From assembly GCA_009773565.1 (NCBI GenBank), contig WSXY01000003.1, positions 1 to 64,000 on the forward strand: 64,000 nucleotides of DNA, written 5' to 3'. This document shows positions 45 to 13,633 of this stretch, in pieces; position 1 is the stretch's first letter, and every line of letters begins with the position of its first letter. Below the pieces are notes generated by a model that saw nothing but the letters and a program-made list of their open reading frames with translations, made no database searches and had not been told where the DNA came from. The stretch comes from Actinomycetota bacterium (GTDB lineage Bacteria > Actinomycetota > Coriobacteriia > Anaerosomatales > Anaerosomataceae). A program made the position numbers and the translations under genes.

Positions 45-1154
45 TTGGCAGTCTGGAGTCGGCTGGCTCGGGCGTTCGAACTACCCGCACCACGACCAGG
101 AGGTCACAATGCCAAAGGAAACGGTCTCAATGCCGTATCGGCTGGCTCATGCGTTCGAACTGCAGAAGAAAGAGTTCTCGTACTCCCACAAGTCGGCCTT
201 GCAGAAGTCTCAATGCCGCATCGGCTGGCTCATGCGTTCGAACGACATGATGGACATCGCGCCAGGCAAGAAGATCGTAGTCTCAATGCCGCATCGGCTG
301 GCTCATGCGTTCGAACTCGACGACCCCATGACCGACACCACACAAGAGGACGTGCGGCTGTCTCAATGCCGCATCGGCTGGCTCATGCGTTCGAACCGCG
401 AGTCGAGTTCAGGTACAAAGGCCGCGTCGTCGTGTCTCAATGCCGCATCGGCTGGCTCATGCGTTCGAACGCACACGCCCATGCCAAAGTGGACGAGGTC
501 TTCGAGTCTCAATGCCGCATCGGCTGGCTTATGCGTTCGAACTCTAAGAACATGGCTCCAGAGATGGAACTCGACCTGCAGTCTCAATGCCGCATCGGCT
601 GGCTCATGCGTTCGAACCTGGGTACATCAACGCATGGGCTGTTCATAACGCAGGTGTCTCAATGCCGCATCGGCTGGCTCATGCGTTCGAACGCGACAAG
701 GTCGTCGTCGGTCACTACTACGGCTTCACGTCTCAATGCCGTATCGGCTGGGTCATGCGTTCGAACGACTCCGCCTTCATGCTGCTGCCACATCCGGACA
801 ACTAGTCTCAATGCCGTATCGGCTGGGTCATGCCTTCGAATTGAAAGACGTGCTCGTGTTCGAGTCGGGGGAGAGCATCCTCATGTCTCAATGCCGTATC
901 GGCTGGCTCGTGCGTTCGAACTCATCGAGGTCGGAGACGTTGCCGCAACCCCTATCTACAAGAAGTCTCAATGCCGTATCGGCTGGCTCGTGCGTTCGAA
1001 CGCGTATCTCGGAAGCACCATCAATGCTGCTGTCACTGGTGTCTCAATGCCGTATCGGCTGGCTCGTGCGTTCGAACATGCCATTGCAAAGGATGACATC
1101 AAGAGGTTGCGTCGTATGTCTCAATGCCGTATCGGCTGGCTCGTGCGTTCGAAC
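45..1154 (-). CRISPR. CRISPR array, 14 intact 37-nt repeats plus one degenerate terminal repeat, 14 spacers
   Basis: Intact repeats start at 124, 207, 280, 360, 434, 506, 581, 656, 730, 805, 885, 965, 1041 and 1118; a degenerate copy at 45-81 keeps only its right half. Spacers are 35-46 nt. On the plus strand each repeat begins GTCTCAATGCCG and ends GTTCGAAC. Read on the minus strand it contains GCCG-ATA-CGGC, a 4-bp hairpin, followed at once by ATTGAGAC, an 8-nt tail like the canonical type III crRNA handle ATTGAAAC. That, the leftward cas operon and the degenerate left-end repeat all indicate minus-strand transcription with the leader near 1155-1314. Repeat variants are grouped in blocks along the array. 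Bases 1-44 hold nothing I recognise. Confidence 0.98.
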
Positions 1155-1314
1155 CCTATCCTTCATCTATCCAGGTAGATGGTACCGAAAGCACCACCCT
1201 TCCGCTAATCGCCGCCCCAGATTTTGATCTCCCTGATTCTCCAACACGGCATCTGGGCGACCCGCGAATCTCGGACTGCATTTGCCCTGTTCAGAGCCGC
1301 TATTCGCGGGATTC
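1155..1314 (-). promoter_or_regulatory. Probable CRISPR leader between cas6 and the array
   Basis: This 160-base non-coding segment lies between the cas6 stop and the first intact repeat on the side opposite the degenerate repeat, which is where a leader belongs for a minus-strand array. It carries a perfect 9-bp inverted repeat, CCCGCGAAT at 1261-1269 and ATTCGCGGG at 1302-1310, with a 32-base loop just after the cas6 stop. I see no convincing -10/-35 pair, so the array may be transcribed by read-through from the cas operon. Confidence 0.55.
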
Positions 1315-2148
1315 TCAGACGTCCCGATTCCTCCGCCAACCCCCTCCTCTCAACCGCCCCGAGGCGACTAGCGGAATCGCATCCCACGCTCTCGCACGGA
1401 CTGTCACACCCATCCCGCGCATGGTCTCCATGCCGGTGCCCCCGAACTCGGCGAGCGTGAGAAGCGCATCGATGGCAGACAGAACCTCCGGAGCTTGATG
1501 CTCCGGATGACCCATTTCAAGGTCGATCGTGCCCACAAACCCCGTGACCGATCTGCCGGGATCAAGTGCGACGTCTGCTGTCCGTCCCATTTGTGCCGTG
1601 ATAGCCAGGGCCTCGACTGCCAAGTCGACACCGTCGGGCAGGGGCACGGGCGCGAACCCCTTCCATCGTGCGAGCCATCCTCGGCCGTACACCTGGATAT
1701 CGGGCACCGGCCTAACCACCCGGCTGGAAGTACCGGTTCTGTGCGCTGTCGGCGTTTCGAAGCGAATCCGCCACAGCGCGCAGGCGCGGGCACTCCTAAT
1801 GATCTGCTCCCAGGATGCTCGCCTGATCTCTTGTGGCTCAAGCGCCAACTGGTAGGTATCCGCTCCAAGCCTCTTCGAGGTTCCGACGGCTCCCGCACCG
1901 TGCACAACCATCGGCTCCAGGCGGTCATCAACGAATCGCACGTCAAATGTCCACAGGTTGGTCGATGAGATTCGCGTGAGCGGGCCGATTGAATACGGTT
2001 TGAGCCCCCCCAAATCATGGGAGGCCCGCGCCACGTCCGGAGAACCAGACGCTATCCACGCAAGCACGAGCGCCCGGATCGCCTTAGCGTGATTCGCTGG
2101 ATCAGCAGGCCGGGGACCAGCGAGTGTGAAGCGCGTTATGACAGGCAT
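1315..2148 (-). CDS. cas6: CRISPR pre-crRNA endoribonuclease Cas6 family protein
   Basis: Cas6 proteins cut pre-crRNA inside the repeat at the base of a hairpin, leaving an 8-nt 5' handle, and this array's repeat has exactly that arrangement on the minus strand. The 277-residue protein shows the glycine-rich loop typical of Cas6/RAMP folds near its C-terminus, GGTGMETMRGMG at about residues 235-247, and the common N-terminal pattern with PYSIGPL. It is the last gene of the cas operon, 8 bases after the CARF gene and 160 bases before the array. The catalytic residues of this family vary and I cannot assign them. Its position beside the array and the G-rich loop make the family call fairly safe. 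Confidence 0.85.
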   Translation of the reverse strand: MPVITRFTLAGPRPADPANHAKAIRALVLAWIASGSPDVARASHDLGGLKPYSIGPLTRISSTNLWTFDVRFVDDRLEPMVVHGAGAVGTSKRLGADTYQLALEPQEIRRASWEQIIRSARACALWRIRFETPTAHRTGTSSRVVRPVPDIQVYGRGWLARWKGFAPVPLPDGVDLAVEALAITAQMGRTADVALDPGRSVTGFVGTIDLEMGHPEHQAPEVLSAIDALLTLAEFGGTGMETMRGMGVTVRARAWDAIPLVASGRLRGGGWRRNRDV

Positions 2149-2156
2149 CGCGGTCC

Positions 2157-3308
2157 CTATCCCCCACCGTACTTGGACTTGAAGTCGTTCTTGCTTCGCA
2201 GGTCAAGCATGACAAGACGAGCTCCGTCCCATCCGCAAAGCACCCGAAAGTTCTCGTGCGGTCGGAAGTGGTCCACCCGTGCGAACTCGTCGGATTTCAT
2301 GCCCTCCATTCGATCGTAGTGCAGACCGGCGGCTCCGATCGATGACCATCCCCTCGTGGAGCGTAGAGTCACGCTGGCCTTGGCGAGGCTCTCCTGAAAT
2401 GCCGCACGCAAATTCCTGTCCTTCTGAGCCTCAAACCCGCCCACAAAAGGGTCGCGATACTCCAGGTTCGGCCAGGGGAGCAGCCGCTCCCCATAGATCT
2501 CCTTCTTCAGCGCTCCCCAGTACATCGATGCCAGGTCGCTCATCCAGTAGGCATCGTCGCCAACCTCGGTCAGAAGCGCGCCATCAATCCCGGAGACTTC
2601 GTCGGTAGTGAGCTCCTCGCCCTGCTCCATGCGTCCGAATGCGACTGCATGCTCCCGGAACGGTGTCTCGTCGAAACGCAGGGGGTACGCAGGCAGCCTG
2701 ATGCCCTCCTCGCCAGTCTCAAAGACGTATGAGATCTCAGCGTGGTGCAACATGCCCAACACAGTCAGGTAACCGACAAGCGCCTTGAACCCTCCCGCGG
2801 TGCAGAAGACCACACGGCTGCTCGTGTCAGTGCGAGTGGGAAGCACGTTCCCGCACCACGTCGAGAGATCGCCCACCGCTCGGGAGAACGATCTATTCGA
2901 TGATGTGTTGAGTCCCTTGAATCGAATGATCTCGACGCACGTAACCCCAGAAGCGCGGAGCACAAGCTCCACAAGTTGCGCAGCTTGATCGCCCACATAT
3001 GTGTCGCTCGGAATCAGGTAGTGCTGGTCGGTGGGCGTCGGTCGGGAGTCCGAATCGGCGAAGTAACGGTTGATGCCGTTGAGCTCTGCTGACAGATTAG
3101 GCAGAACAACACTGGCACCGGTTAGGTCGCCGACGCGCGCGCGAACCTCCGCGATTCGGGCGTCGATGGCCGCCTTGTCCTCGAGCGAAAGCTGGCTCGC
3201 TTGCAGATTGGCGGTACCGGCAGGGGGCCGCCAGTTCTCCTGATCGTCCAGCCCATTGGTGAGGATGCTGGTTCCCACCGGGGAGAGCATGATGTTGCGC
3301 ACGTGCAT
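2157..3308 (-). CDS. CARF-domain effector with RelE-like C-terminal domain (Cami1-like candidate)
   Basis: The 383-residue protein opens with a CARF domain of the APE2256/TIGR02619 type: the start motif LSPVGTSILTN, then FCTAGGFKALVGYLT and SYVFETGEEG near residues 165-205. CARF domains bind the cyclic oligoadenylate made by Cas10. The last 80 or so residues do not look helical like HEPN; the run FRVLCGWDGARLVMLDL followed by basic residues and KSKY (from about residue 354) resembles the final beta-hairpin of RelE/HigB mRNA interferases. CARF-RelE fusions (Cami1) cut ribosome-bound mRNA when activated. The start is supported by AGGAGAT five bases upstream. The CARF call is strong; the RelE assignment is my inference from residue pattern and needs a profile or structure comparison. 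Confidence 0.75.
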   Translation of the reverse strand: MHVRNIMLSPVGTSILTNGLDDQENWRPPAGTANLQASQLSLEDKAAIDARIAEVRARVGDLTGASVVLPNLSAELNGINRYFADSDSRPTPTDQHYLIPSDTYVGDQAAQLVELVLRASGVTCVEIIRFKGLNTSSNRSFSRAVGDLSTWCGNVLPTRTDTSSRVVFCTAGGFKALVGYLTVLGMLHHAEISYVFETGEEGIRLPAYPLRFDETPFREHAVAFGRMEQGEELTTDEVSGIDGALLTEVGDDAYWMSDLASMYWGALKKEIYGERLLPWPNLEYRDPFVGGFEAQKDRNLRAAFQESLAKASVTLRSTRGWSSIGAAGLHYDRMEGMKSDEFARVDHFRPHENFRVLCGWDGARLVMLDLRSKNDFKSKYGGG

Positions 3309-3317
3309 GCTGATCTC

Positions 3318-3719
3318 CTATCGCCGTGTTCTCGCTCGACTTCGCATGGCCTCAAGGTTAAGAACCTCCGCGAGCCGGTAGTTTCGCACCAAAGCGCCGT
3401 CGTCTGGAGCAAAGCGCACGATGGCCGGGAAGTGGCCGAGCCTACCGTGGAGTTCGGCGAGTACCACGGCGGTCAGCGGCGCGTGCGTGGGCAAGCCGAC
3501 AACAAGATTCAGCCGTGGCCAGTCGCCCGGATCGATGTTGGTAGCGTCGATTGCCGCGACCACCTGTGGCTCAAGCAGCTCCGAGAGGTTGGCGGCAAAC
3601 TCCACCTCGTGGAGGGAGAAGCCCTCACACCCCGCGGCCTCGACAATCTCATCGACAACCGCGGGAGTGAGCGCATGTCCGAAGTTGACTATGTGGAGGA
3701 TACGGTCCGTCGTAGGCAC
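3318..3719 (-). CDS. csx15: CRISPR-associated protein Csx15
   Basis: The 133-residue protein matches my memory of the Csx15 family: an N-terminal HIVNFGHALTP stretch, a central EPQVVAAID segment, and a C-terminal run with ELHGRLGHFPAIVRF and a NYRLAEVLNLEAMRSRAR tail. Csx15 occurs with type III systems and is thought to bind or remove cyclic tetra-adenylate and so damp the signal made by Cas10. Its GTG start overlaps the TAG stop of the insertion-bearing Cas7 gene by one base, and the CARF effector begins 9 bases after its stop, so signal-handling and effector genes are co-transcribed. I cannot show enzymatic activity from sequence. Confidence 0.75.
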   Translation of the reverse strand: MPTTDRILHIVNFGHALTPAVVDEIVEAAGCEGFSLHEVEFAANLSELLEPQVVAAIDATNIDPGDWPRLNLVVGLPTHAPLTAVVLAELHGRLGHFPAIVRFAPDDGALVRNYRLAEVLNLEAMRSRARTRR

Positions 3720-6007
3720 TAGCGCGGGCCCCTTCGGTACTCCTCGATGTACGGCAGTCCGGTGTCATTCGCAAGCGCCGGAAGCGAGTAGCCCAACGTC
3801 ACCTCGCCTCTCGACGCACGCTCGTTCTGCGCAAACCACTTGAACAGTTCGCCCGTTGCCGGCGGAGGCGGCAGCTCGGTGCCGGACTTCGTCCGCGGGT
3901 AGATGACCGGCAGGCCGTCGTCGAACCCTGTGGCGGCGCAAAGGTAAGCGGCGATGAACGCGGCGCCCTCGAATGAGACCGAAGTGGATTCCTCGACCGC
4001 ACTGACGAATGCTGCAACGAACCGCGCCGGCTCGAGAGTTTCCGACAATCCGCCTGCACCGAAGGCGCGGTAGTCGTCGGCGATCTGCTCGCCTGAGCTT
4101 GCCGCGGAGCCCGCTTCTTGAAGGGTCACGCGGACGCTTCCATAGCCGTACGGCTTCGCGCCGCCCATTCGCATGAAGTGCTCAGCGGGAAGGGTGGTGA
4201 GCCATAAGAGCGCACCGAGTTCCACCGCGCTCAGGTTGGCGTAGTCGATGGCCACGCTGAAGCGCGCGCCCGGCCTGATCCAGCCACTCACGCTCCGGTT
4301 CTGACGATCCAACTGCTCCTGCCCGCTCAGCTTCGGGCGCCGATACTCCTGGAACCTGCCGGCTTGGGCGGACTGCGTGCGGTCCTCCATCGGATCGCTC
4401 CAGTAGCCCCCCGGCAGACCGGCATGATGCGGGTAGACCTTGCGGCCCCTCAGGAGTTGCTCAGGCGCATAGCCGTCGGCCTTCGTGAGACCACGGAACA
4501 GCGGGGCCGCATCGGGAGACTGTCCCACGTAGAATCGGAATTGCTGCGGCTTTGGTTGCCCCAGAATCGGGAGTGGCAATCCTGGACTAAACGAAACGAT
4601 CGCGTCGTCGTCGAGGCACTGAGTAGCCCCCACACGAACCTGACCGCGATAGCCGCCCTGTCCGGAAGCGTTGACCCACCCGAAGACACGGTCAGCCGGT
4701 GAGAACTCATCGAACCTGGAGGCTGGCTTCAAGGAAGGGTGGAGCAACTGCTCTGGTGACCGAGCGTAGAGTTCCCGACCGATCATGACCGGGTAGATGC
4801 CCTTGAGGACAAGACCTCCGTCGTCCTTGCGGTGCATGCGTGCATAGAGAAGCGTGCCCGGAGCGAGCTCACGTTCGCCTTCGCCGCCGGTGACGTGGCG
4901 AGACCACTCGATTCTCCCCCCTGCGGCGCTGGGGCCACGAACGTTGTGCCGTACCTCATCGGCGTGTGTGTCCTGGAAGTTGGTGATCAACTCACGCCAC
5001 GCAGCGCGACGGGTTTCGGTTATGGGGACTCTCTTCGGATCGTCGACGTCACTGAAGAAGAGACGCTCATCATGCTTCTTGGGGAAGTTGTGACCCGTGC
5101 GGCACACCCAGCCCTCAATAAGCCGTCGGTCTCCGTCGACCACGGCGTCCCTGATTGGTGTCGATTGAACACGCTCGACCATCCAATGGAGCAGCGGGCC
5201 CGTTCCAACCCGACGGACAAGCGCGTGAACGTGCTGGCCGTGGCGCAGGTCCCCGAGTCTGTTTTGCTGGCGGTCCGGAAGATACGCGGGAATCCACGCC
5301 GCGTACTGCTCTGCGCTCGGCTTGTTCCCACGCGCCACGGTCGACGTGCCCATGAGCAGTTCGATCTTGGCACCGTCGTCGCTGACTCTAGCCGGAACGA
5401 GCGTGAGCGCGACCGTGCTCGCGTCCTGACGGTAGGCGAGCCGCTGGGAATGTCGCTGCTGCCACACCCCAAAGCGAGAGTTAGTAACGGCCTCATACGC
5501 AGAGCGCAGCGCGCCCTTGACGGTAGTGGGGGGCAAATAGGGACGACCGTCCGGGCCCACCCGCACCGGGAAGGACTTGTGATCGTCGCCTTCGGCTGCG
5601 GCCGAATCCGGAACGAGCAGCGGCGTCTCAACCGTCAGCTGCAGCTTCAGTGACCCGGTGAAAAGACCCGGCTTGAGGGATTCGTGACCGACCGGAGCAT
5701 GATCGCCGAGGTCCGGGTGTGCGAGATTCCTGGGTAGTGCCGGCACGAAGTTGTAGGCGTTGTGGAAATCTCCCGGGACTCCGCGGTCAGCAACCGCAAC
5801 ATTTGACGTGGTTGCACCCGCAACCGCGACCCTCGTAGGCGTTAGGCCGTCGAACTCCACGGAGACCTCGATGGTTGCCTTCTGAGCCGCGGCCCGCATC
5901 GCTTCGTCAATAATCGACTCGTCGATCTCCTTGCTCTGATAGAAGGGACCCGACGTCAGGCGATACTTCTTGCCATCGAACTTGAGCGTTCCGGGCTGCC
6001 TAGCCAT
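3719..6007 (-). CDS. Insertion-bearing Cas7 subunit of type III-D (TIGR03986-like RAMP protein)
   Basis: A 762-residue RAMP protein, far longer than a single Cas7 of about 250 residues. The N-terminal third has YNFVPALPR and then a Cas7 core with LTVETPLLVPDS and RPYLPPTTVKGALRSAYE near residues 130-175. The glycine-rich loop (MGGAKPYGYGSVRV) lies near residue 625, so most of the protein between them is an insertion. The motif order fits TIGR03986 proteins, the Cas7-insertion subunit of III-Dv complexes. It would form the end of the crRNA-binding filament and may contribute an RNA cleavage site, since acidic residues occupy the expected loop. The start overlaps the end of csx19 by 8 bases. 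Confidence 0.85.
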   Translation of the reverse strand: MARQPGTLKFDGKKYRLTSGPFYQSKEIDESIIDEAMRAAAQKATIEVSVEFDGLTPTRVAVAGATTSNVAVADRGVPGDFHNAYNFVPALPRNLAHPDLGDHAPVGHESLKPGLFTGSLKLQLTVETPLLVPDSAAAEGDDHKSFPVRVGPDGRPYLPPTTVKGALRSAYEAVTNSRFGVWQQRHSQRLAYRQDASTVALTLVPARVSDDGAKIELLMGTSTVARGNKPSAEQYAAWIPAYLPDRQQNRLGDLRHGQHVHALVRRVGTGPLLHWMVERVQSTPIRDAVVDGDRRLIEGWVCRTGHNFPKKHDERLFFSDVDDPKRVPITETRRAAWRELITNFQDTHADEVRHNVRGPSAAGGRIEWSRHVTGGEGERELAPGTLLYARMHRKDDGGLVLKGIYPVMIGRELYARSPEQLLHPSLKPASRFDEFSPADRVFGWVNASGQGGYRGQVRVGATQCLDDDAIVSFSPGLPLPILGQPKPQQFRFYVGQSPDAAPLFRGLTKADGYAPEQLLRGRKVYPHHAGLPGGYWSDPMEDRTQSAQAGRFQEYRRPKLSGQEQLDRQNRSVSGWIRPGARFSVAIDYANLSAVELGALLWLTTLPAEHFMRMGGAKPYGYGSVRVTLQEAGSAASSGEQIADDYRAFGAGGLSETLEPARFVAAFVSAVEESTSVSFEGAAFIAAYLCAATGFDDGLPVIYPRTKSGTELPPPPATGELFKWFAQNERASRGEVTLGYSLPALANDTGLPYIEEYRRGPR

Positions 6008-6542
6008 GTGCGACCACCTCCAGGCTCAAGAGACGCTCCTCGACGACGGCCGCGTTGCCGTACTCGTCCTCTATGGCGATGTACTCGCGATATCGAATCA
6101 CGGCCTGACCGCCATCGGGCAACCCGTGGACTGGAATCTGCAGCGCGCCGATTCGCGATTCCGCGACTTCACTCCAGCCTGGGGAGGGAACGCGTCCGGT
6201 CCCGGTGCCCCAGAGCAAGTACGTGCCGTCCAGCGTCTCTGTAGCCTCCAGCGCGGGTTCCCCCAAACCCTCCTCGCTGAGCACGACGAAGCTACCCTCA
6301 CCACCATGAGTGTGGAGCCACCTCAGTTCAGCCTTCGGACTGAAGACTCGCGCTTCGAATGCGGCACTCGCATCGATGGCACCGCTAGCGCCGACTATCT
6401 TTGCGCTTTCGAGTGCCCCGACGAGACAGGCCGACGGTGTGTACACGAGCGCCACGGTTCCGCTACCCAGCGTGTCGCTGAATCGGGAAACCGCATCGGC
6501 GAGCGAGGTACCTTCTCCCCTCGTCGCAAACAACTGCGTCAT
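6000..6542 (-). CDS. csx19: Type III-D CRISPR-associated protein Csx19
   Basis: The 180-residue protein has the TIGR03984/Csx19 hallmarks: FEARVFSPKAELRW, then GTYLLWGTG, SRIGALQIPV, a tyrosine-rich YREYIAIEDEYGN and ERLLSLE at the end. Csx19 is diagnostic of subtype III-D and is a structural subunit near the Cas10/Cas5 end of the III-Dv effector complex. It starts with an ATGA overlap on the stop of the double-Cas7 gene and its 3' end overlaps the next gene, so translation is coupled along the backbone operon. No enzymatic motif is visible. Confidence 0.85.
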   Translation of the reverse strand: MTQLFATRGEGTSLADAVSRFSDTLGSGTVALVYTPSACLVGALESAKIVGASGAIDASAAFEARVFSPKAELRWLHTHGGEGSFVVLSEEGLGEPALEATETLDGTYLLWGTGTGRVPSPGWSEVAESRIGALQIPVHGLPDGGQAVIRYREYIAIEDEYGNAAVVEERLLSLEVVAHG

Positions 6543-8044
6543 GATTGGTCCCCTCCTTCAACGTACTCGATCCACGCTCGGCCGATTTCCCCAGCGAACG
6601 AGAGGTCCCAGGGGGCCGCCCATGCGAACGTGGCGAGCTCCTGCATGTCTACCGGCAAGTCCTGCCCTTCGAAACGGATCGCATCGACCGCAATCTCGCC
6701 CAGACCACGATTGCCGCCGAATCCCAGTGGCAGTGAGCCCCGCGCCAGATCCCGCAAAGCAAGAAGCAGCAGCCCGAGCCCGGCGGGCGCGCTATCCTCG
6801 CTCAGTCGATCGAGATCAATGGAGATGCGCAGCGGTTCGTACTCGATTGCAAAGGGCTCAACGGTCGTGAAGAGCTGTCTGTCGGCAGCACTGCCAGTCC
6901 AGCGATCGACCGCCACGTGGTAGGCAACGGTGGACTTCTCGAGTCCTGCAGTGCGTAGGCCCTCGAGGACATCCGCGTCAGTCGCTGCTGCCTCGATCTT
7001 CGCCCAATCTCCGGCGTCGGCGCGGTGATGGGCGTAGGCGTCGTCGATGCCCACAGCCCCGAGGCCGGGCATCCACTCAGCGTCCTCAGCCCCTTCTCCC
7101 GTCGCTCCAAACAACTCGGATACCAGAGGAACGTCAATCTGAGCGCGAAACTCATCGCCCTTTTCGGCTTTCTGCGCCCCGGATGCCATCACAGTGCGCA
7201 CGATTCGCTCGGCATTAGCGCGCAGGACACCCTTCACGCTGCTGCCCGGAACCACCAGCGCCACACCGTCGTCTGTGTGGCCAACCAAGGGAAGGTGATC
7301 CACGCCAAGGTTCGCGCGACCTGAACCCACCATGAGTGGGCCGACCGAGCGCCAATCGACAGTCACTTCAAGCATCGGGACGGGGTTCATCGGGAGCGCG
7401 GCGAGCTCATCGATCCGAAGCTCCTCCGGACTTCCCCTAAGCACCGAAAGCATCCCCGCTCGCGAGCCAAGGTCCTGGCGAAGCACCTTGGCATTCTCCA
7501 GCACCACGCGACCGAGTCCCCTCGTTTTGCCTGCCCCCAAGCGGATCAGGCCTTGCGAGAGCGCACGAACGAGCTCGGCAACCTGAGACTCAACATGGGC
7601 CGCATCGTCTGCAAGCGCAGCATCGACGAGGATTCTGATCGCGAGGCGCGAGTCGCGAGGCAGAACCGCGCGATCATACTTGACCGAAGGGGCTGCCGCC
7701 CCGGTGACTCTGTCGATACCGACACCGTCGCGAACTTCAACGGAAGCTCCCTTGGGCAGCGCAACCACTGCGTCCTCTACGGTCACGAAACTCGCATGCC
7801 CCGCATCGCTGCGTTGGAAGCCCCACAACCCGTCGACCGCGGGCTCGCCGCCAAGGACGCGGCGCGTCATCCACTCACGAAGCGCTCCCGCCAGACTGGT
7901 GCCAGGAACGTAGAATCGTCCCCGCCCATCGACAGCTGGCACAAGATCGACCACATTCCCTTCGGTCTCTCCACCTACGTGCACCGGAGTCAGAGCCCGA
8001 AGGTCACCCTCGATGATCCATCGCGCGTGAACAGTTCTGGCCAT
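6539..8044 (-). CDS. Double Cas7 (Cas7-2x) RAMP subunit, type III-Dv-like
   Basis: Two Csm3-like Cas7 units are fused in 501 residues. Unit 1 has VHVGG, an acidic residue at D33 and YVPGTSLAGALREW, with its glycine loop RLGAGKTRGLGRV near residue 190. Unit 2 has MVGSGRANLGVD, then VVPGSSVKGVLR near residues 255-280, a LFGATGEG segment and the loop PLGFGGNRGLGEI near 450. In Csm3-type subunits the acidic residue in the first loop cuts target RNA, and D33 sits in the same place; unit 2 has an aspartate in the equivalent GVDHLPL. The gene is sandwiched by stop/start overlaps between the Cas7-Cas5-Cas11-like gene and csx19. Confidence 0.87.
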   Translation of the reverse strand: MARTVHARWIIEGDLRALTPVHVGGETEGNVVDLVPAVDGRGRFYVPGTSLAGALREWMTRRVLGGEPAVDGLWGFQRSDAGHASFVTVEDAVVALPKGASVEVRDGVGIDRVTGAAAPSVKYDRAVLPRDSRLAIRILVDAALADDAAHVESQVAELVRALSQGLIRLGAGKTRGLGRVVLENAKVLRQDLGSRAGMLSVLRGSPEELRIDELAALPMNPVPMLEVTVDWRSVGPLMVGSGRANLGVDHLPLVGHTDDGVALVVPGSSVKGVLRANAERIVRTVMASGAQKAEKGDEFRAQIDVPLVSELFGATGEGAEDAEWMPGLGAVGIDDAYAHHRADAGDWAKIEAAATDADVLEGLRTAGLEKSTVAYHVAVDRWTGSAADRQLFTTVEPFAIEYEPLRISIDLDRLSEDSAPAGLGLLLLALRDLARGSLPLGFGGNRGLGEIAVDAIRFEGQDLPVDMQELATFAWAAPWDLSFAGEIGRAWIEYVEGGDQS

Positions 8045-10365
8045 CAGACTTCACTCCCCTCTGACACGAGTGCTCTCGTGGAGGCAGCGCCTTCTCCACG
8101 CTTTCGGGCGCGAACACACGCATCGACCAGGGCTCGAACTGCTTCGCCCCACAGGACGTCCATGAGTTCTGATTCGCCCCCCGTGGTCGCGGTGATCTCA
8201 GCCGCCCAGCTTTGTGCCTGAAGCACCTCCCAGACCCGCTCGGATGATTGACCCAGAGCCACGATCTGTCGCGGTACCTTGAACGAACCGCTCTTCGATT
8301 CCACGTGAGCGCACCACTGTTGGAACTGGTTCTCGGCCTCTCGGCGCAGTGGGCCCGGTGCCACATCAAGCCACGAGACCGCGCTCAAGAGCACCGACGC
8401 CTGGCTTGAGCCAAGAGGACCGCCAAGCACCTCAGCGACGCCGACCTTGGATGATGCAACTTCAAGGCACTTGCGGGCGATGACCTGCCGCCATGCCGCT
8501 AGCTCGACAATACGGGCGAACTCAAAACCCGGGTCGCCCTCAGCGACCACGGACGTTGGTGCACTTGAAGGATTGGCGCTTCCGGGCGTCCTTGATGCTG
8601 CCGATTCGACGAGGAGCGGGTCATCGAACGCGATGCGGCCGAAACCCTCGGCGCGACGCTCCCCGAGTCCCGCGACCGAAACCTCGGCAAGCCTCTTTGG
8701 ATCCAGCTTGCCAGACACTTCGAAGGCAATGCAGGTGCCTGCGCGCAGCCCCGCGAGCGATGGCCGCGGCAACGACCAGCGTGCCTGCCATGATTCTCGC
8801 CGAGTCGCCGAGGCGGCGACCGTGGTGGGCTCACGAGCGGCGAGAGTCAGAGTCACCCCGAGTTCCTGACCTAACACCCGGGCAAGATCGAGCGGCGAAG
8901 AGCTTGGGCGCAGCAAGTCATTGCGAACCAGAAGATCGGACAAGAGCCACACCGTGAGTAGATCGTTCGACCCGGCAACTGCACCAGATGTGGCGACGGG
9001 TGCGCCCGCCACATGCATGCTTGCGGAGCCGTACTCACCCTTCTTGCCGGTACCCAGGGATATCCTGGCGTTCAATCGCTCCCACCATCGTGTATCGGCG
9101 CTGCTGAGTACGTCGACAACACCCTTACGCACGAGCACCTTACCCGCCAACTTCGTACCCGAGGGAATGGATCGGAGGGTGTAGAGCCCCGCCGCGCCGA
9201 TCGGGCGCTGGCTGTCGTCGCTGACTGAGTTGTGTGACTCAGTGCCAAGGGATGCCGGGCAATGCGCCGGGAGAATCCCAGCCGTTGTAGCGCCGATCCA
9301 GCCACCCGCCTCCTTCGCCAACTGAGAGTCCGTCGGCGCACTATCGACGAAACGATTCAGCACTCCCTTGCCGGACGAGAGACCCGGCTCACCCTTGAGT
9401 CGGGCGAACGCGAGGGGAACCGGACGGCCTGCGTCGCCGGCGACAACCGGCGTTGCGTCTGACAGAAGCAGCTCCCCGCCGCCGATGGCGGAACTGATAT
9501 CCGCCACGGGGCGAAGCAAACGCGAGACAGCGCCGAGAAGATGGGTGCCTGGAACGAAATCGAGCGACTCAAGCACGTTGCCGATCGTTCCGTTGGCAAT
9601 AGCCAACGGCGACAAGGCCTCTATCTCGAAGTCGAGAGAAAGCCACTCTCCACCGCGAGCATTCTGCACTTCAGGGGCGGAAACTGGAGCCCGTTGAGGG
9701 AGCGCGCCCGGATCAGCCACGTGGTTACTCAGCCAGGAGATCCACTTGGAAGCGTCGGCGCCGCTGATGCTCATCGTACATCGGCCCGCACCACGCCTTC
9801 GCTTGCCGCCAACGCGCTCGACCATGCTGGCACCCGCCACGAGCAGCGCAAACGCCGCAGGCGGGACGGCGTCGGTCAGGAACTCACACTCCGCAGAAAG
9901 CTGGCTTCCGCAGCGCGCGACTTCCTCAAACCGCAAGAAGTCGTCTTGAGCGCGGCCGGAGCGCCTGTCGATCTTGACGCCCGCCTTGACGAACGTGGCC
10001 GCCGCGCAAAGAGCCGGCTTCGAGCCGAGTGCCGCCAACAGCGACGCCGGATAGTGCGCCGAGCGGATCGACAGAGCTGCTGGTGCGGGCGGGAGGTCTC
10101 TGACCTCGCCCTCCTGTACCTGCTGCCCGAACAGGAAGTCGACCCAGCCGGCCCACGCGCCGCGTGCCCCGTCATCGAGTCCGGAGGCAACAAGCTCGCA
10201 TCCGTCACGAAGGATGCCCGCGAGCGTCTTACCCGGGAGATACGGCAAACCGTCGGCATCGCGCCGTACAAGCCGATCGACGTCACCCGGCCGACCAGCA
10301 CCGGAACCGATGTGCCAGTCGGACAGCATATCGATGGAAAGAGAGAACGTTTTCGGAGTCTCCAT
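8044..10365 (-). CDS. Cas7-Cas5(Csx10)-Cas11-like fusion subunit, type III-Dv-like
   Basis: This 773-residue protein looks like three backbone parts in one chain. Residues 1-200 are a Cas7/RAMP unit with HIGSGAGRPGDVDR, LPYLPGKTLAGILRDG and the basic glycine loop GGKRRRGAGRC. Residues about 240-590 match Csx10, the Cas5-like protein of III-D, with LSPLAIANGTIGN, LDFVPGTHLLGAVSR and a late GLGERRAEGFGRIAF loop. The last 140 residues appear mostly helical, as expected for a Cas11-like small subunit. Aspartates D28 and D30 lie in the putative RNA-cleaving loop of the Cas7 part. ATG at 10365 overlaps the cas10 stop by one base; a GTG three bases upstream is the alternative. The Cas11 part is inferred from position and composition. 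Confidence 0.82.
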   Translation of the reverse strand: METPKTFSLSIDMLSDWHIGSGAGRPGDVDRLVRRDADGLPYLPGKTLAGILRDGCELVASGLDDGARGAWAGWVDFLFGQQVQEGEVRDLPPAPAALSIRSAHYPASLLAALGSKPALCAAATFVKAGVKIDRRSGRAQDDFLRFEEVARCGSQLSAECEFLTDAVPPAAFALLVAGASMVERVGGKRRRGAGRCTMSISGADASKWISWLSNHVADPGALPQRAPVSAPEVQNARGGEWLSLDFEIEALSPLAIANGTIGNVLESLDFVPGTHLLGAVSRLLRPVADISSAIGGGELLLSDATPVVAGDAGRPVPLAFARLKGEPGLSSGKGVLNRFVDSAPTDSQLAKEAGGWIGATTAGILPAHCPASLGTESHNSVSDDSQRPIGAAGLYTLRSIPSGTKLAGKVLVRKGVVDVLSSADTRWWERLNARISLGTGKKGEYGSASMHVAGAPVATSGAVAGSNDLLTVWLLSDLLVRNDLLRPSSSPLDLARVLGQELGVTLTLAAREPTTVAASATRRESWQARWSLPRPSLAGLRAGTCIAFEVSGKLDPKRLAEVSVAGLGERRAEGFGRIAFDDPLLVESAASRTPGSANPSSAPTSVVAEGDPGFEFARIVELAAWRQVIARKCLEVASSKVGVAEVLGGPLGSSQASVLLSAVSWLDVAPGPLRREAENQFQQWCAHVESKSGSFKVPRQIVALGQSSERVWEVLQAQSWAAEITATTGGESELMDVLWGEAVRALVDACVRARKRGEGAASTRALVSEGSEV

Positions 10366-11972
10366 CACAGCAGCCCCCCCTTCATAAACTCGGAGATCTC
10401 GACAGCGTCGAGCAGGCGCGTCGCACGCCCGTCACCGTCATCGAAGAAGAGCGACTCACTGGAACCGAGCAGCTTCTCAGCTGCTGGATACGAACCTCGG
10501 ACCAAGGCGAACTGCGCATCGGCCGCGGCCGCCCCCATGAAGAGCGCCGACCTGAGCGCGTGCACCTGACTGTTGGGGACCGGGGCGTCCTCGCCTCCGC
10601 GAGCGATACCTGACAGTGCGGTCGCGAGGAGTTCGACCGCGTGCTGGCCAATCCAGCCAGAGGCATCGCTCTCGCCGGTGAGCTTACTCGCAACGTATGG
10701 GCGGCCATGAAGCCGCTCGCCGTCCGCCATCCGCAGCTGTGAACGGAGAGCGCCGAGCTCGGAAGCGGTGGTGTCGTAGAGCGCATGGAAGTCAAATACC
10801 GAGAAGCCGGGATTGAGGTGCCCCGCTGCCTTCCGGGAAGCGTCTTTGGCGGATTGCAGCAGTTCCTCGGCGAGACCATATGCTGCCCAGAACGGATAGT
10901 GTTTGCGAACAATGGCGACACCTGCGGCGGCGGTCAGGTGGTCACGGCCCAGGGCTGCCTGAGCGATACTCGCGAGTACTGGCTCGTTGGCGGTCCGTGA
11001 CTCGAACGCCCTCAAAAAGGCGACGGTGAGCGGCAAAGCGCTCTTTGCATCTGTCACAAGGGTGACATCGTCGCCACCTAGAACGAGGGGCTGCACAAGC
11101 GGCGCGCCGTCCGGACCAGCGCCTTTTCCCGCGGTCGACGCAATTGCGTCGCGGACCGCCTGACCGGTGGCTCGCTCAAGCGCGACCGAGAACTCGCGCA
11201 TGGTCGTGAGATATGCCCGATCGTCATCGCCGGCGTACTTCTCGAAGTCGATGAGAAGGCGACCGATGCCGTTGCCATCAGCATGGATAACAGCGATCCA
11301 GGCGCCGACTCCGGCAACCTGATCGAGCTCGGTCAACTGAGCGTTCAAGCCGATCGAGGCTGCAAGCCGTTGGTACCCGGCGTCTCGTACCGCTGCCTTC
11401 TTCGCACTAACTGTCGACACGGGACTGATGCGATCACGGTAGGTCTCGACGCCAGCAGCGGGAAGTCCGCTGCTGGCGCACTCCGCAACCACCGGGAGGC
11501 GGAAGTAACGCATTGTCGGCGAAGTCCGCATCTGACGAGCGTGCTCGAATCGCCGATGCAGCAGGTTCATCTGAGACGCTGCGATGCCGCGTCCCAGTTC
11601 GAATTCGTCGCTCATAACACCCGTCAAGTCGAGACCGGGTGCCTCGCGCAACGCGCGGGAGGTCACTGCGGAGATGAGAGCCCGGCCGGTCTTCTCGGAG
11701 TCGACGAGAATGATTGCTTTTCCAGAGGCCGCAACGATCACCTCGGCAACAACACCTGGGCCGATTGGAGGGTTCACCCCCGAGTCGAGAAGCGACTCCG
11801 CGAGTGCTGCACCGGTCGGAAGGCTCGGACCTCCCAGCTCCGACAGCGCCTCGGTCACCCAGGTCGTTCCGGATCTGTAGGTCAGTTCTGATGCCCCGAC
11901 GTTCTCCCTTAGCCGGTTGGTGGTGAAGATGTAGCGCTGATTACCCGATGTTTCAAGCAAGACAAGACGCAC
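10365..11972 (-). CDS. cas10: Type III Cas10 (palm/cyclase) subunit lacking an HD nuclease domain
   Basis: Cas10 makes cyclic oligoadenylates on sensing target RNA. The protein starts directly with the palm region (LVLLETSGNQRYIF, LRENVGASELTYRSG), has the first palm motif HADGNGIG at about 230-237 and an intact catalytic GGDD at 299-302. At 535 residues it has no N-terminal HD DNase domain, which is typical of subtype III-D. I chose GTG at 11972 because a GGGGGG ribosome-binding stretch lies about 6 bases upstream and because the family starts at this point; an in-frame ATG at 12005 would add 11 residues. It leads the operon, so effectors downstream depend on the same transcript. Confidence 0.93.
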   Translation of the reverse strand: MRLVLLETSGNQRYIFTTNRLRENVGASELTYRSGTTWVTEALSELGGPSLPTGAALAESLLDSGVNPPIGPGVVAEVIVAASGKAIILVDSEKTGRALISAVTSRALREAPGLDLTGVMSDEFELGRGIAASQMNLLHRRFEHARQMRTSPTMRYFRLPVVAECASSGLPAAGVETYRDRISPVSTVSAKKAAVRDAGYQRLAASIGLNAQLTELDQVAGVGAWIAVIHADGNGIGRLLIDFEKYAGDDDRAYLTTMREFSVALERATGQAVRDAIASTAGKGAGPDGAPLVQPLVLGGDDVTLVTDAKSALPLTVAFLRAFESRTANEPVLASIAQAALGRDHLTAAAGVAIVRKHYPFWAAYGLAEELLQSAKDASRKAAGHLNPGFSVFDFHALYDTTASELGALRSQLRMADGERLHGRPYVASKLTGESDASGWIGQHAVELLATALSGIARGGEDAPVPNSQVHALRSALFMGAAAADAQFALVRGSYPAAEKLLGSSESLFFDDGDGRATRLLDAVEISEFMKGGLL

Positions 11973-12036
11973 GTTTTGCCCCCCTAGGTTGCCCTCCGGT
12001 CCCAACAGCCGAACCGCCCCCGAGCATATTCATCCG

Positions 12037-12042
12037 AGTATA
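12037..12042 (-). promoter_or_regulatory. Possible -10 element for the cas operon
   Basis: TATACT on the minus strand lies 65 bases upstream of the cas10 GTG, in the only sizeable gap (11973-12293) before the divergent vapB gene. I find no good -35 at 16-18 bases, so this is a weak call. Confidence 0.3.
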
Positions 12043-12169
12043 GCCTGCCCTGAGCTGACTGCGATACGCGGGAGAAAGGGAATACGTGGAAAGCTAAGGC
12101 GCGTAGCAGCTCCAAGCATATCCAAGCTGCGCTGCCGCGCAAGCGTGTGTTTTCGCGTCCCTGTCGCAG

Positions 12170-12211
12170 ACAAGTTGAAGTGTCACCCCCAACGAACAAG
12201 TAGAAGTGTCA
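12170..12211. repeat. Two direct repeats of a 16-bp motif, 26 bases apart (possible IS end remnant)
   Basis: ACAAGTTGAAGTGTCA at 12170-12185 recurs as ACAAGTAGAAGTGTCA at 12196-12211, 15 of 16 bases identical. No transposase is present on either side. Repeated internal motifs near element ends are known for IS21-type insertion sequences, so this could be a relic of an element end at the border of the CRISPR locus, or a tandem regulator site. The rest of the 321-base gap holds only the -10 candidate for cas10 and the vapB operator region. Confidence 0.45.
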
Positions 12212-12256
12212 GCCCACTCCTGCAACGTGGAATTGTTACCCGTGGTGTATACTCTA

Positions 12257-12289
12257 TGTGTATGATTCATACACACTTGGAGTGTGGTC
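12257..12289 (+). promoter_or_regulatory. Probable VapB operator: 19-bp palindrome plus ACACT-N3-AGTGT
   Basis: TGTGTATGATTCATACACA at 12257-12275 is a perfect 9-1-9 palindrome. It is followed by a second inverted repeat, ACACTTGGAGTGT at 12273-12285, that overlaps its right edge and ends 8 bases before the vapB ATG. TATACT at 12248-12253 could be the -10. Ribbon-helix-helix antitoxins bind such repeated half-sites and repress their own operon. The second part recurs upstream of the MazF-type pair at 34223-34244. Confidence 0.7.
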
Positions 12290-12293
12290 TGTA

Positions 12294-12560
12294 ATGGCGC
12301 GAATCAACATCACTATCCCTGACGGACTGCTAGAGGATGTCGACCGAACGGCGGAGAGCCTGGGGACATCGAGAAGCGCATTCCTCCAGGAAGCCGGCGC
12401 ATGCTACATCGCCGAGATCACCGAATCGCGCGAGCGCGAACAGCGTGTGCGCGACATCGACGCAGCGATCATGCGTGCACGCACCGTCGGCGCGAAGATG
12501 AAGCCCGGGTTTGACGCGATGACCCAGATCCGCAAAGACCGGGAGCGTGATGGGAAGTGA
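12294..12560 (+). CDS. vapB: Ribbon-helix-helix antitoxin of a VapBC-type pair
   Basis: An 88-residue protein whose first 45 residues (ARINITIPDGLLEDVDRTAE, then SRSAFLQEA) form a ribbon-helix-helix DNA-binding fold of the CopG/MetJ type; the rest is charged and helical, fit to wrap the toxin. ATG at 12294 is chosen over an upstream in-frame ATG because the family start motif begins right there and the operator lies just ahead of it. The GTG start of the toxin overlaps its TGA stop. It should neutralise the PIN ribonuclease downstream and repress the shared promoter. Confidence 0.85.
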   Translation: MARINITIPDGLLEDVDRTAESLGTSRSAFLQEAGACYIAEITESREREQRVRDIDAAIMRARTVGAKMKPGFDAMTQIRKDRERDGK

Positions 12561-12973
12561 CCGGCTCTGTCTGTGTGGACACATCGGTCGCATTCAAATG
12601 GTTCTCGCCCGCCGAGGAGCCCGGGGTTGACGAAGCTCTGAAGTTGCTTCGGTCACATCGTGACAACGAGATAGCGCTCCTGGCTCCCTCGATCATGCGA
12701 GTCGAAGTCGCGAACGCGCTGCGCTACTCAGGCTGCGGCGCACCTGATCTTCGCGAGGCCATTCAGGACCTTACCCGGTTCCACATCGAATTCGTCGAAC
12801 TCAGCGACTGTACCCTGGCGCACGCGGGGGAGCTCGCGATTGAACACCGATTGAGCGTGTACGACGCAACATTCCTCGCGTTGGCCATTGAGCGAGAGTG
12901 CGTTCTCGTGACGGCTGATCGAAAGGCCTTCGGTCGTCTGCCGACGTCACTCTGCGAGATTCGACTGCTTTAG
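12557..12973 (+). CDS. vapC: PIN-domain toxin ribonuclease, VapC family
   Basis: The 138-residue protein is one PIN domain with all four acidic residues that hold the catalytic metal: D8 in CVDTSV, E50 in MRVEVANAL, D103 in VYDATFLALA and D121 in TADRKAF. VapC toxins cut tRNA or rRNA when freed from the antitoxin. The GTG start overlaps the vapB stop (GTGA), the classic coupled arrangement. It points away from the adjacent cas operon and converges on the LysE-type exporter 25 bases downstream. Confidence 0.9.
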   Translation: MTGSVCVDTSVAFKWFSPAEEPGVDEALKLLRSHRDNEIALLAPSIMRVEVANALRYSGCGAPDLREAIQDLTRFHIEFVELSDCTLAHAGELAIEHRLSVYDATFLALAIERECVLVTADRKAFGRLPTSLCEIRLL

Positions 12974-12997
12974 CCGAGAATTCGCGCCAGACACCCG

Positions 12998-13633
12998 TCA
13001 GCCCGTAAGCCCCGCCACGATCGCGATCAGCCCGAAGATCGCCACGAGCGCGCCCGAAACCCGACTGACGCCCCCGAGCACGCGATCGCCCACGCGCGCC
13101 CGCGCGAGCGAACTCACCGTCACAAGCGCGACCCACCATGCAAGCGAGCCGCTCACAACACCGGCAGTCGCGATGGCAGCGGTCGCCGAACCCGGCTGTG
13201 CGGCAAGCCCGGCGCTCGCGAAGATCGCGCCGAACGCCATGATCGTCATCGGGTTCGTCAACGTGAGTCCCACCGCCGAGGCGTAGAGCGTCGCAAGCCC
13301 CCGTCCGTCGAGCGGATCCGCCGAGGCGCATGCAACCGTCTTGGGCTGCGTCAACATCGCGCGCACGCCCAGGTAGACGAGCACGGCGCCCCCGACGAGC
13401 CGCAGCGGCGTCTGCCAGGTCACGAGCACACCCGAGAGCGCCGAAAGCCCGAAGGCCGCGATTGCCGCGTAGACGCCGTCGGCTGTGGCGATGCCGAGTC
13501 CGGTCGCAAGCCCCGCGCGTGCTCCCCTGTCGAGCGTTCGCTGGATGCACAGGACGCCCATCGCGCCGACAGGTGCGGCCACGAGGATGCCGATGATGAA
13601 GGTACGCGCGTAGAGCGCGACGATCGGCGACAT
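12998..13633 (-). CDS. LysE/RhtB-family amino acid exporter
   Basis: A 211-residue membrane protein with about six hydrophobic segments and the family's N-terminal signature GILVAAPVGAMGVLCIQRTL, followed by a GLATGLGIATADGVYAA loop and the TNPMTIMAF motif in the third to fourth segment. LysE-type proteins export basic or small neutral amino acids and related metabolites; the substrate cannot be read from sequence. The gene starts one base after the stop of the pdtaR-like gene, so the three genes pdtaS, pdtaR and this exporter form one transcript. Confidence 0.85.
   Translation of the reverse strand: MSPIVALYARTFIIGILVAAPVGAMGVLCIQRTLDRGARAGLATGLGIATADGVYAAIAAFGLSALSGVLVTWQTPLRLVGGAVLVYLGVRAMLTQPKTVACASADPLDGRGLATLYASAVGLTLTNPMTIMAFGAIFASAGLAAQPGSATAAIATAGVVSGSLAWWVALVTVSSLARARVGDRVLGGVSRVSGALVAIFGLIAIVAGLTG

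Follow-up and report, generated by a model that had tools for sequence, protein, structure and literature searches.

Type III CRISPR-Cas interference requires CRISPR RNAs (crRNAs) that are antisense to transcripts. Across genomes, the preference of type III spacers for the coding strand averages 65% (2:1), with 88% in the III-B system of Moraxella (PMC8482600). In Thermus thermophilus, a type III system lacking reverse transcriptase (RT) takes up spacers from either strand, and a very strong antisense bias then arises through selection (PMC7515739). The HD domain is rare in type III-D loci (3%), which are thought to act mainly via cyclic oligoadenylate (cOA) signaling (PMC11229360). The type III-Dv system of Synechocystis sp. 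PCC 6803 (pSYSA CRISPR2; PMC11026444) has five effector subunits, a separate Cas6, spacers of 34 to 46 nt, and Csx1/Csm6-type accessory proteins.

The locus described here lies in a window of 64,000 nt (the whole stretch of DNA analyzed), which starts at base 1 of its contig (C14), and anything to the left of the CRISPR array is thus out of view. Beside the array, eight co-oriented genes occupy the minus strand from 1315 to 12005. The features are the following.

45 to 1154, minus strand: CRISPR array with fifteen 37-nt repeats and 14 spacers of 35 to 46 nt, with the leader on the right and the trailer on the left
45 to 81, minus strand: terminal repeat at the trailer end, degenerate in the half that is 3' in the crRNA sense
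82 to 1117, plus strand: the 14 spacers, which have a coding-sense look on plus, the strand complementary to the crRNAs
1155 to 1314, minus strand: probable leader, assigned only from its position between the array and cas6
1315 to 2148, minus strand: cas6, crRNA-processing endoribonuclease (Pfam PF10040, E = 3e-9; PADLOC Cas6, E = 2e-14)
2157 to 3308, minus strand: CARF-RelE effector, Cami1-like (PADLOC CARF7--CARF_RelE, E = 8e-76)
3318 to 3719, minus strand: csx15, cA4-binding/ring-nuclease family (NCBIfam NF040560, E = 3e-29, above the cut-off)
3719 to 6007, minus strand: cas7-insertion subunit (TIGR03986, E = 2e-85; 45% identity to the Synechocystis III-Dv subunit)
6000 to 6542, minus strand: csx19 (TIGR03984, E = 2e-32; 35% identity to Synechocystis Csx19)
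6539 to 8044, minus strand: cas7-2x, a double Cas7 fusion (38% identity to Synechocystis)
8044 to 10368, minus strand: cas7-cas5-cas11 fusion (37% identity to Synechocystis)
10365 to 12005, minus strand: cas10, 546 aa (38% identity to Synechocystis III-Dv Cas10)

The cas10, cas7-cas5-cas11, cas7-2x, csx19, and cas7-insertion genes lie together in one operon (3719 to 12005, minus strand). Since all five effector subunits share 35% to 45% amino acid identity with those of Synechocystis III-Dv and the gene order is the same, their sequences support the assignment of the system to RNA-targeting type III-Dv CRISPR-Cas. As in Synechocystis, Cas6 is separate and the catalytic residues are kept. According to the catalytic site list published for that system (PMC11026444), Cas7-2x cleaves RNA through aspartates D33 and D246, which correspond to D33 and D249 here, and D31 of Cas7-Cas5-Cas11 aligns with the catalytic D26. 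Cas10 carries the GGDD cyclase motif at residues 310 to 313 and lacks an HD nuclease, because a motif check along the whole protein found no HD dipeptide; its true start may lie slightly 3' of the TTG. A search of genome contigs with the Cas7-insertion protein found no relative.

Unlike the Synechocystis locus with its Csx1/Csm6-type accessories, the operon here contains CARF-RelE and Csx15. The PADLOC match of the CARF-RelE protein covers residues 4 to 372, in which the RelE ribonuclease domain comes after the CARF domain, and sequence kinship to PDB entries 8phb and 8phj is confined to the CARF part. Its activator is expected to be cyclic oligoadenylate. Both accessories have counterparts of the same family beside type III genes, namely, the CARF-RelE protein Cami1, as far as it is cited in PMC11229360, and Csx15 (PMC13148439), and here both are known by sequence. 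The plus strand directly upstream of cas10 (12258 to 12973) encodes a PIN-like protein and a small protein of DNA-binding-like character, which have, judged by eye, the look of a toxin-antitoxin pair.

Degeneracy is the usual state of terminal repeats in CRISPR arrays. Transcription of the array from the minus strand, with the 3' end of the repeat giving the crRNA 5' handle, is supported because the degenerate repeat lies at 45 to 81, the leader adjoins cas6, the repeat ends in ATTGAGAC, and the cas operon is co-oriented. In the crRNA sense, the repeat reads GTTCGAACGCATGAGCCAGCCGATGCGGCATTGAGAC, and a genome-wide search found it nowhere outside the array. The preliminary description had proposed a minus-strand array belonging to an RNA-targeting type III system, and the direction of repeat and leader together with the III-Dv operon bears this out. 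Repeat variants are grouped by position (730 to 1154 of the window): two neighboring repeats at 730 to 841 both carry GGCTGGGTC, one of them with further changes, and the leader-side repeats from 885 onward have GTGCG in place of ATGCG.

The preliminary description had also proposed that crRNAs would be antisense to mRNA, on the grounds that every spacer has an open plus-strand frame and that this strand is about 53% purine. An open plus frame is indeed found in 14/14 spacers, and the quoted peptides are correct, apart from the final M of AIAKDDIKRLRRM, which takes one base from the repeat. However, the presence of such a frame is uninformative and was rejected as evidence, because the minus strand also passes in 14/14 spacers and shuffles give 13.4; the accompanying caution, that open frames count for little when taken alone, was right. 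The purine content is 53.2% (295/555), an excess that lacks significance (binomial P = 0.15) and was likewise rejected as evidence. When all frames are counted, 36/42 are open on the plus strand and 28/42 on the minus strand, compared with 25.2 ± 2.7 in shuffles, and none of 5,000 shuffles matched the 36 open plus frames.

The strand preference was estimated with likelihood models that consider three frames on each of two strands per spacer and yield a maximum-likelihood sense fraction. The plus strand was favored in 12/14 spacers by a host-gene codon model, with a sense fraction of 1.00 (0.80 to 1.00), and in 14/14 by a phage-gene codon model, also with a sense fraction of 1.00. A generic amino acid model with fitted third positions gave 0.97 (0.61 to 1.00; P = 0.012). 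Cruder generic models with fixed GC3 favored plus in 11/14 spacers and gave 0.83 to 1.00, some of them only 0.83 to 0.87. With 14 spacers, the size of the bias is model-dependent, with sense fractions of 0.83 to 1.00 and a lower bound of 0.61 to 0.80. Composition-preserving shuffles reached the observed log-likelihood gain in 0.1% of trials under the host and phage models and in 1.9% under the generic model with GC3 of 0.6. Shuffling letters within spacers abolishes the effect, which therefore reflects frame structure and not composition.

The models were calibrated with simulated 14-spacer sets built from real gene fragments of phages Syn5, KP32, and Cappuccino in six settings. The observed gain was reached by 0 of 400 simulated 50:50 sets in every setting and by at most 0.75% of 65:35 sets. 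In all-sense sets, only about 10 to 12 of the 14 spacers were called correctly, so single-spacer calls are not to be trusted. The sense bias is thus real, though on grounds other than those first given: for most spacers, or for all of them, coding potential lies on plus. This statistical result supports the view that the 14 spacers are stored almost all antisense-ready; because the array is transcribed from the minus strand and the coding sense of the spacers is plus, the crRNAs would pair with mRNA.

The direction of the bias is the same as that reported for type III systems across genomes, and the estimate lies at the upper end, although it was measured from protospacers there (PMC8482600) and is drawn from coding potential here. 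Other arrays were compared in the same way. An array of 92 spacers beside a III-D operon (G240) had a sense fraction of 0.70 to 0.85, and one of 15 spacers in a III-D system with its own Cas1-Cas2 (G396) had 0.90 to 1.00; the array of G017 has only 3 spacers. The Synechocystis III-Dv array gave 0.60 to 0.71, a weaker bias than that found here (0.97 to 1.00), and with the generic model this array by itself gave 0.60 (0.41 to 0.78), which is not clearly off 0.5. The III-Bv array of Synechocystis gave 0.57 to 0.68, and its I-D array gave 0.58 to 0.59, no different from 0.5. Five III-D arrays pooled gave 0.72 (0.62 to 0.82; P = 4e-5), or 0.70 (0.59 to 0.80; P = 3e-4) minus the window's array. With the fitted model, the window's array has the highest estimate among arrays with at least 14 spacers, but it is not proven exceptional, because assuming the pooled value costs it just 1.17 log units.

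The spacers are presumably of phage origin; none of the searches yielded a protospacer for any of them. Among 50,697 phage and 72,556 plasmid records, the concatenated spacers matched only at chance level, over 25 to 42 nt, and 199 relatives gave no matches beyond the array itself. In IMG/VR, seven codon-degenerate single-spacer patterns found no match, and one peptide-pattern scan gave 34 pattern matches with 0 confirmed; these patterns presupposed a plus-strand frame, and any match would lean to plus. The other III-D arrays had no matches against phages. The best partial matches, of spacer 3 (26 to 27 of 36 nt) to metal P-type ATPase-like and ABC transporter-like genes, look like conserved host genes and were rejected as protospacers. 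In many related genomes, the first 20 nt of spacer 3 (244 to 279) are exactly shared with heavy-metal P-type ATPase-like genes in the predicted frame and strand before diverging, which is probably chance.

Taken as a whole, the locus is very likely a III-Dv memory in which antisense spacers have been kept by selection after unbiased acquisition. The minus-strand array transcript would be cut by Cas6 into crRNAs with the AUUGAGAC handle, and these would be loaded into an RNA-recognizing complex of Cas10, Cas7-5-11, Cas7-2x, Csx19, and Cas7-insertion. A spacer would be useful only if its crRNA were antisense to phage mRNA. Acquisition would most likely draw on both strands through ordinary Cas1-Cas2, and selection during infection would keep the antisense spacers, leaving a plus strand that reads as phage coding sequence. 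Target binding would trigger mRNA cleavage by the complex and synthesis of cyclic oligoadenylate at the GGDD site of Cas10. The cyclic oligoadenylate would activate the CARF-RelE ribonuclease and stop translation, and Csx15 would damp the signal. Selection is the likely cause because no RT was found and because of the Thermus precedent, and it is the economical reading. The T. thermophilus system likewise combines lack of RT with strong antisense orientation, there of protective spacers; selection during infection was shown experimentally there, whereas here the end result alone is visible. From the array alone, selection and acquisition bias are inseparable.

The bias might instead have been set at acquisition, by an RT-linked Cas1 copying RNA or by a transcription-dependent orientation of DNA insertion, which would predict a near-complete bias. 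The adaptation genes bear on this possibility. Another contig (C2:1-1106, in L011) carries an intact cas2 and a cas1 whose 5' end is cut by the left contig edge, which leaves the N terminus of this Cas1 out of view. These genes may adjoin the array across an assembly gap and thus be its adaptation genes; no CRISPR array was found on contig C2, and no sequence overlap was found between the contig ends (C2 and C14). However, no RT domain (RVT_1, PF00078) was found in the 98.5% complete genome, and the Cas1 relatives found are stand-alone proteins; most are 338 aa long, have about 62 residues ahead of the matching part, and lack any extension of RT size. In addition, RT-Cas1 systems show only a moderate orientation bias (PMC5576922). 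An acquisition bias is therefore very unlikely, and that an RT-less III-D system orients spacers antisense at acquisition by an unknown mechanism, and not by later selection, appears very doubtful.

Other defense-related genes occur in the same genome. About 1.7 kb downstream of cas1, a CHAT-domain (caspase-like) protein (L011:2481-4421) precedes two proteins that match no family, an arrangement that recalls protease-based defense modules. A second CRISPR system with 36-nt repeats and 30-nt spacers (L013:8463-8985 and 9339-13461) has as neighbors Cas1, Cas2, and a 1,084-aa Cas9-like protein, identified by reading the sequence. The Cas9 array of this genome, with 7 spacers, is a weak control at most for the sense bias, being small and giving a model-dependent result.

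It is highly improbable that the bias stems from the targets, either phages with genes nearly all on one strand or RNA phages. In many phages, including ones used for calibration, nearly all genes do lie on the same strand, but a one-strand DNA phage still gives spacers of both orientations unless selection or a PAM rule intervenes. Acquisition from RNA phages, proposed by Vink et al. as under-sampled type III targets (PMC8482600), would require an RT, which the genome search did not find. That the plus-strand coding look is chance or composition in 14 short GC-rich spacers is scarcely credible. Open frames on both strands in 14/14 spacers and a nonsignificant purine excess speak for it, but shuffles keeping each spacer's composition reach the gain in just 0.1% to 1.9% of trials, and the 50:50 simulations never do.

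Selection after unbiased acquisition thus remains the preferred explanation. The antisense bias of type III spacers is already known, and this array is a clean, ordinary example of it in a well-defined known system; it contributes a clear III-Dv instance whose bias is at the upper end of what has been reported. Orientation set already at acquisition would answer an open question, although nothing here favors that over selection. In addition, coding potential can be used to judge the strand choice of spacers without any known protospacer, a useful option given that targets are identified less often for type III spacers than for those of most other types.
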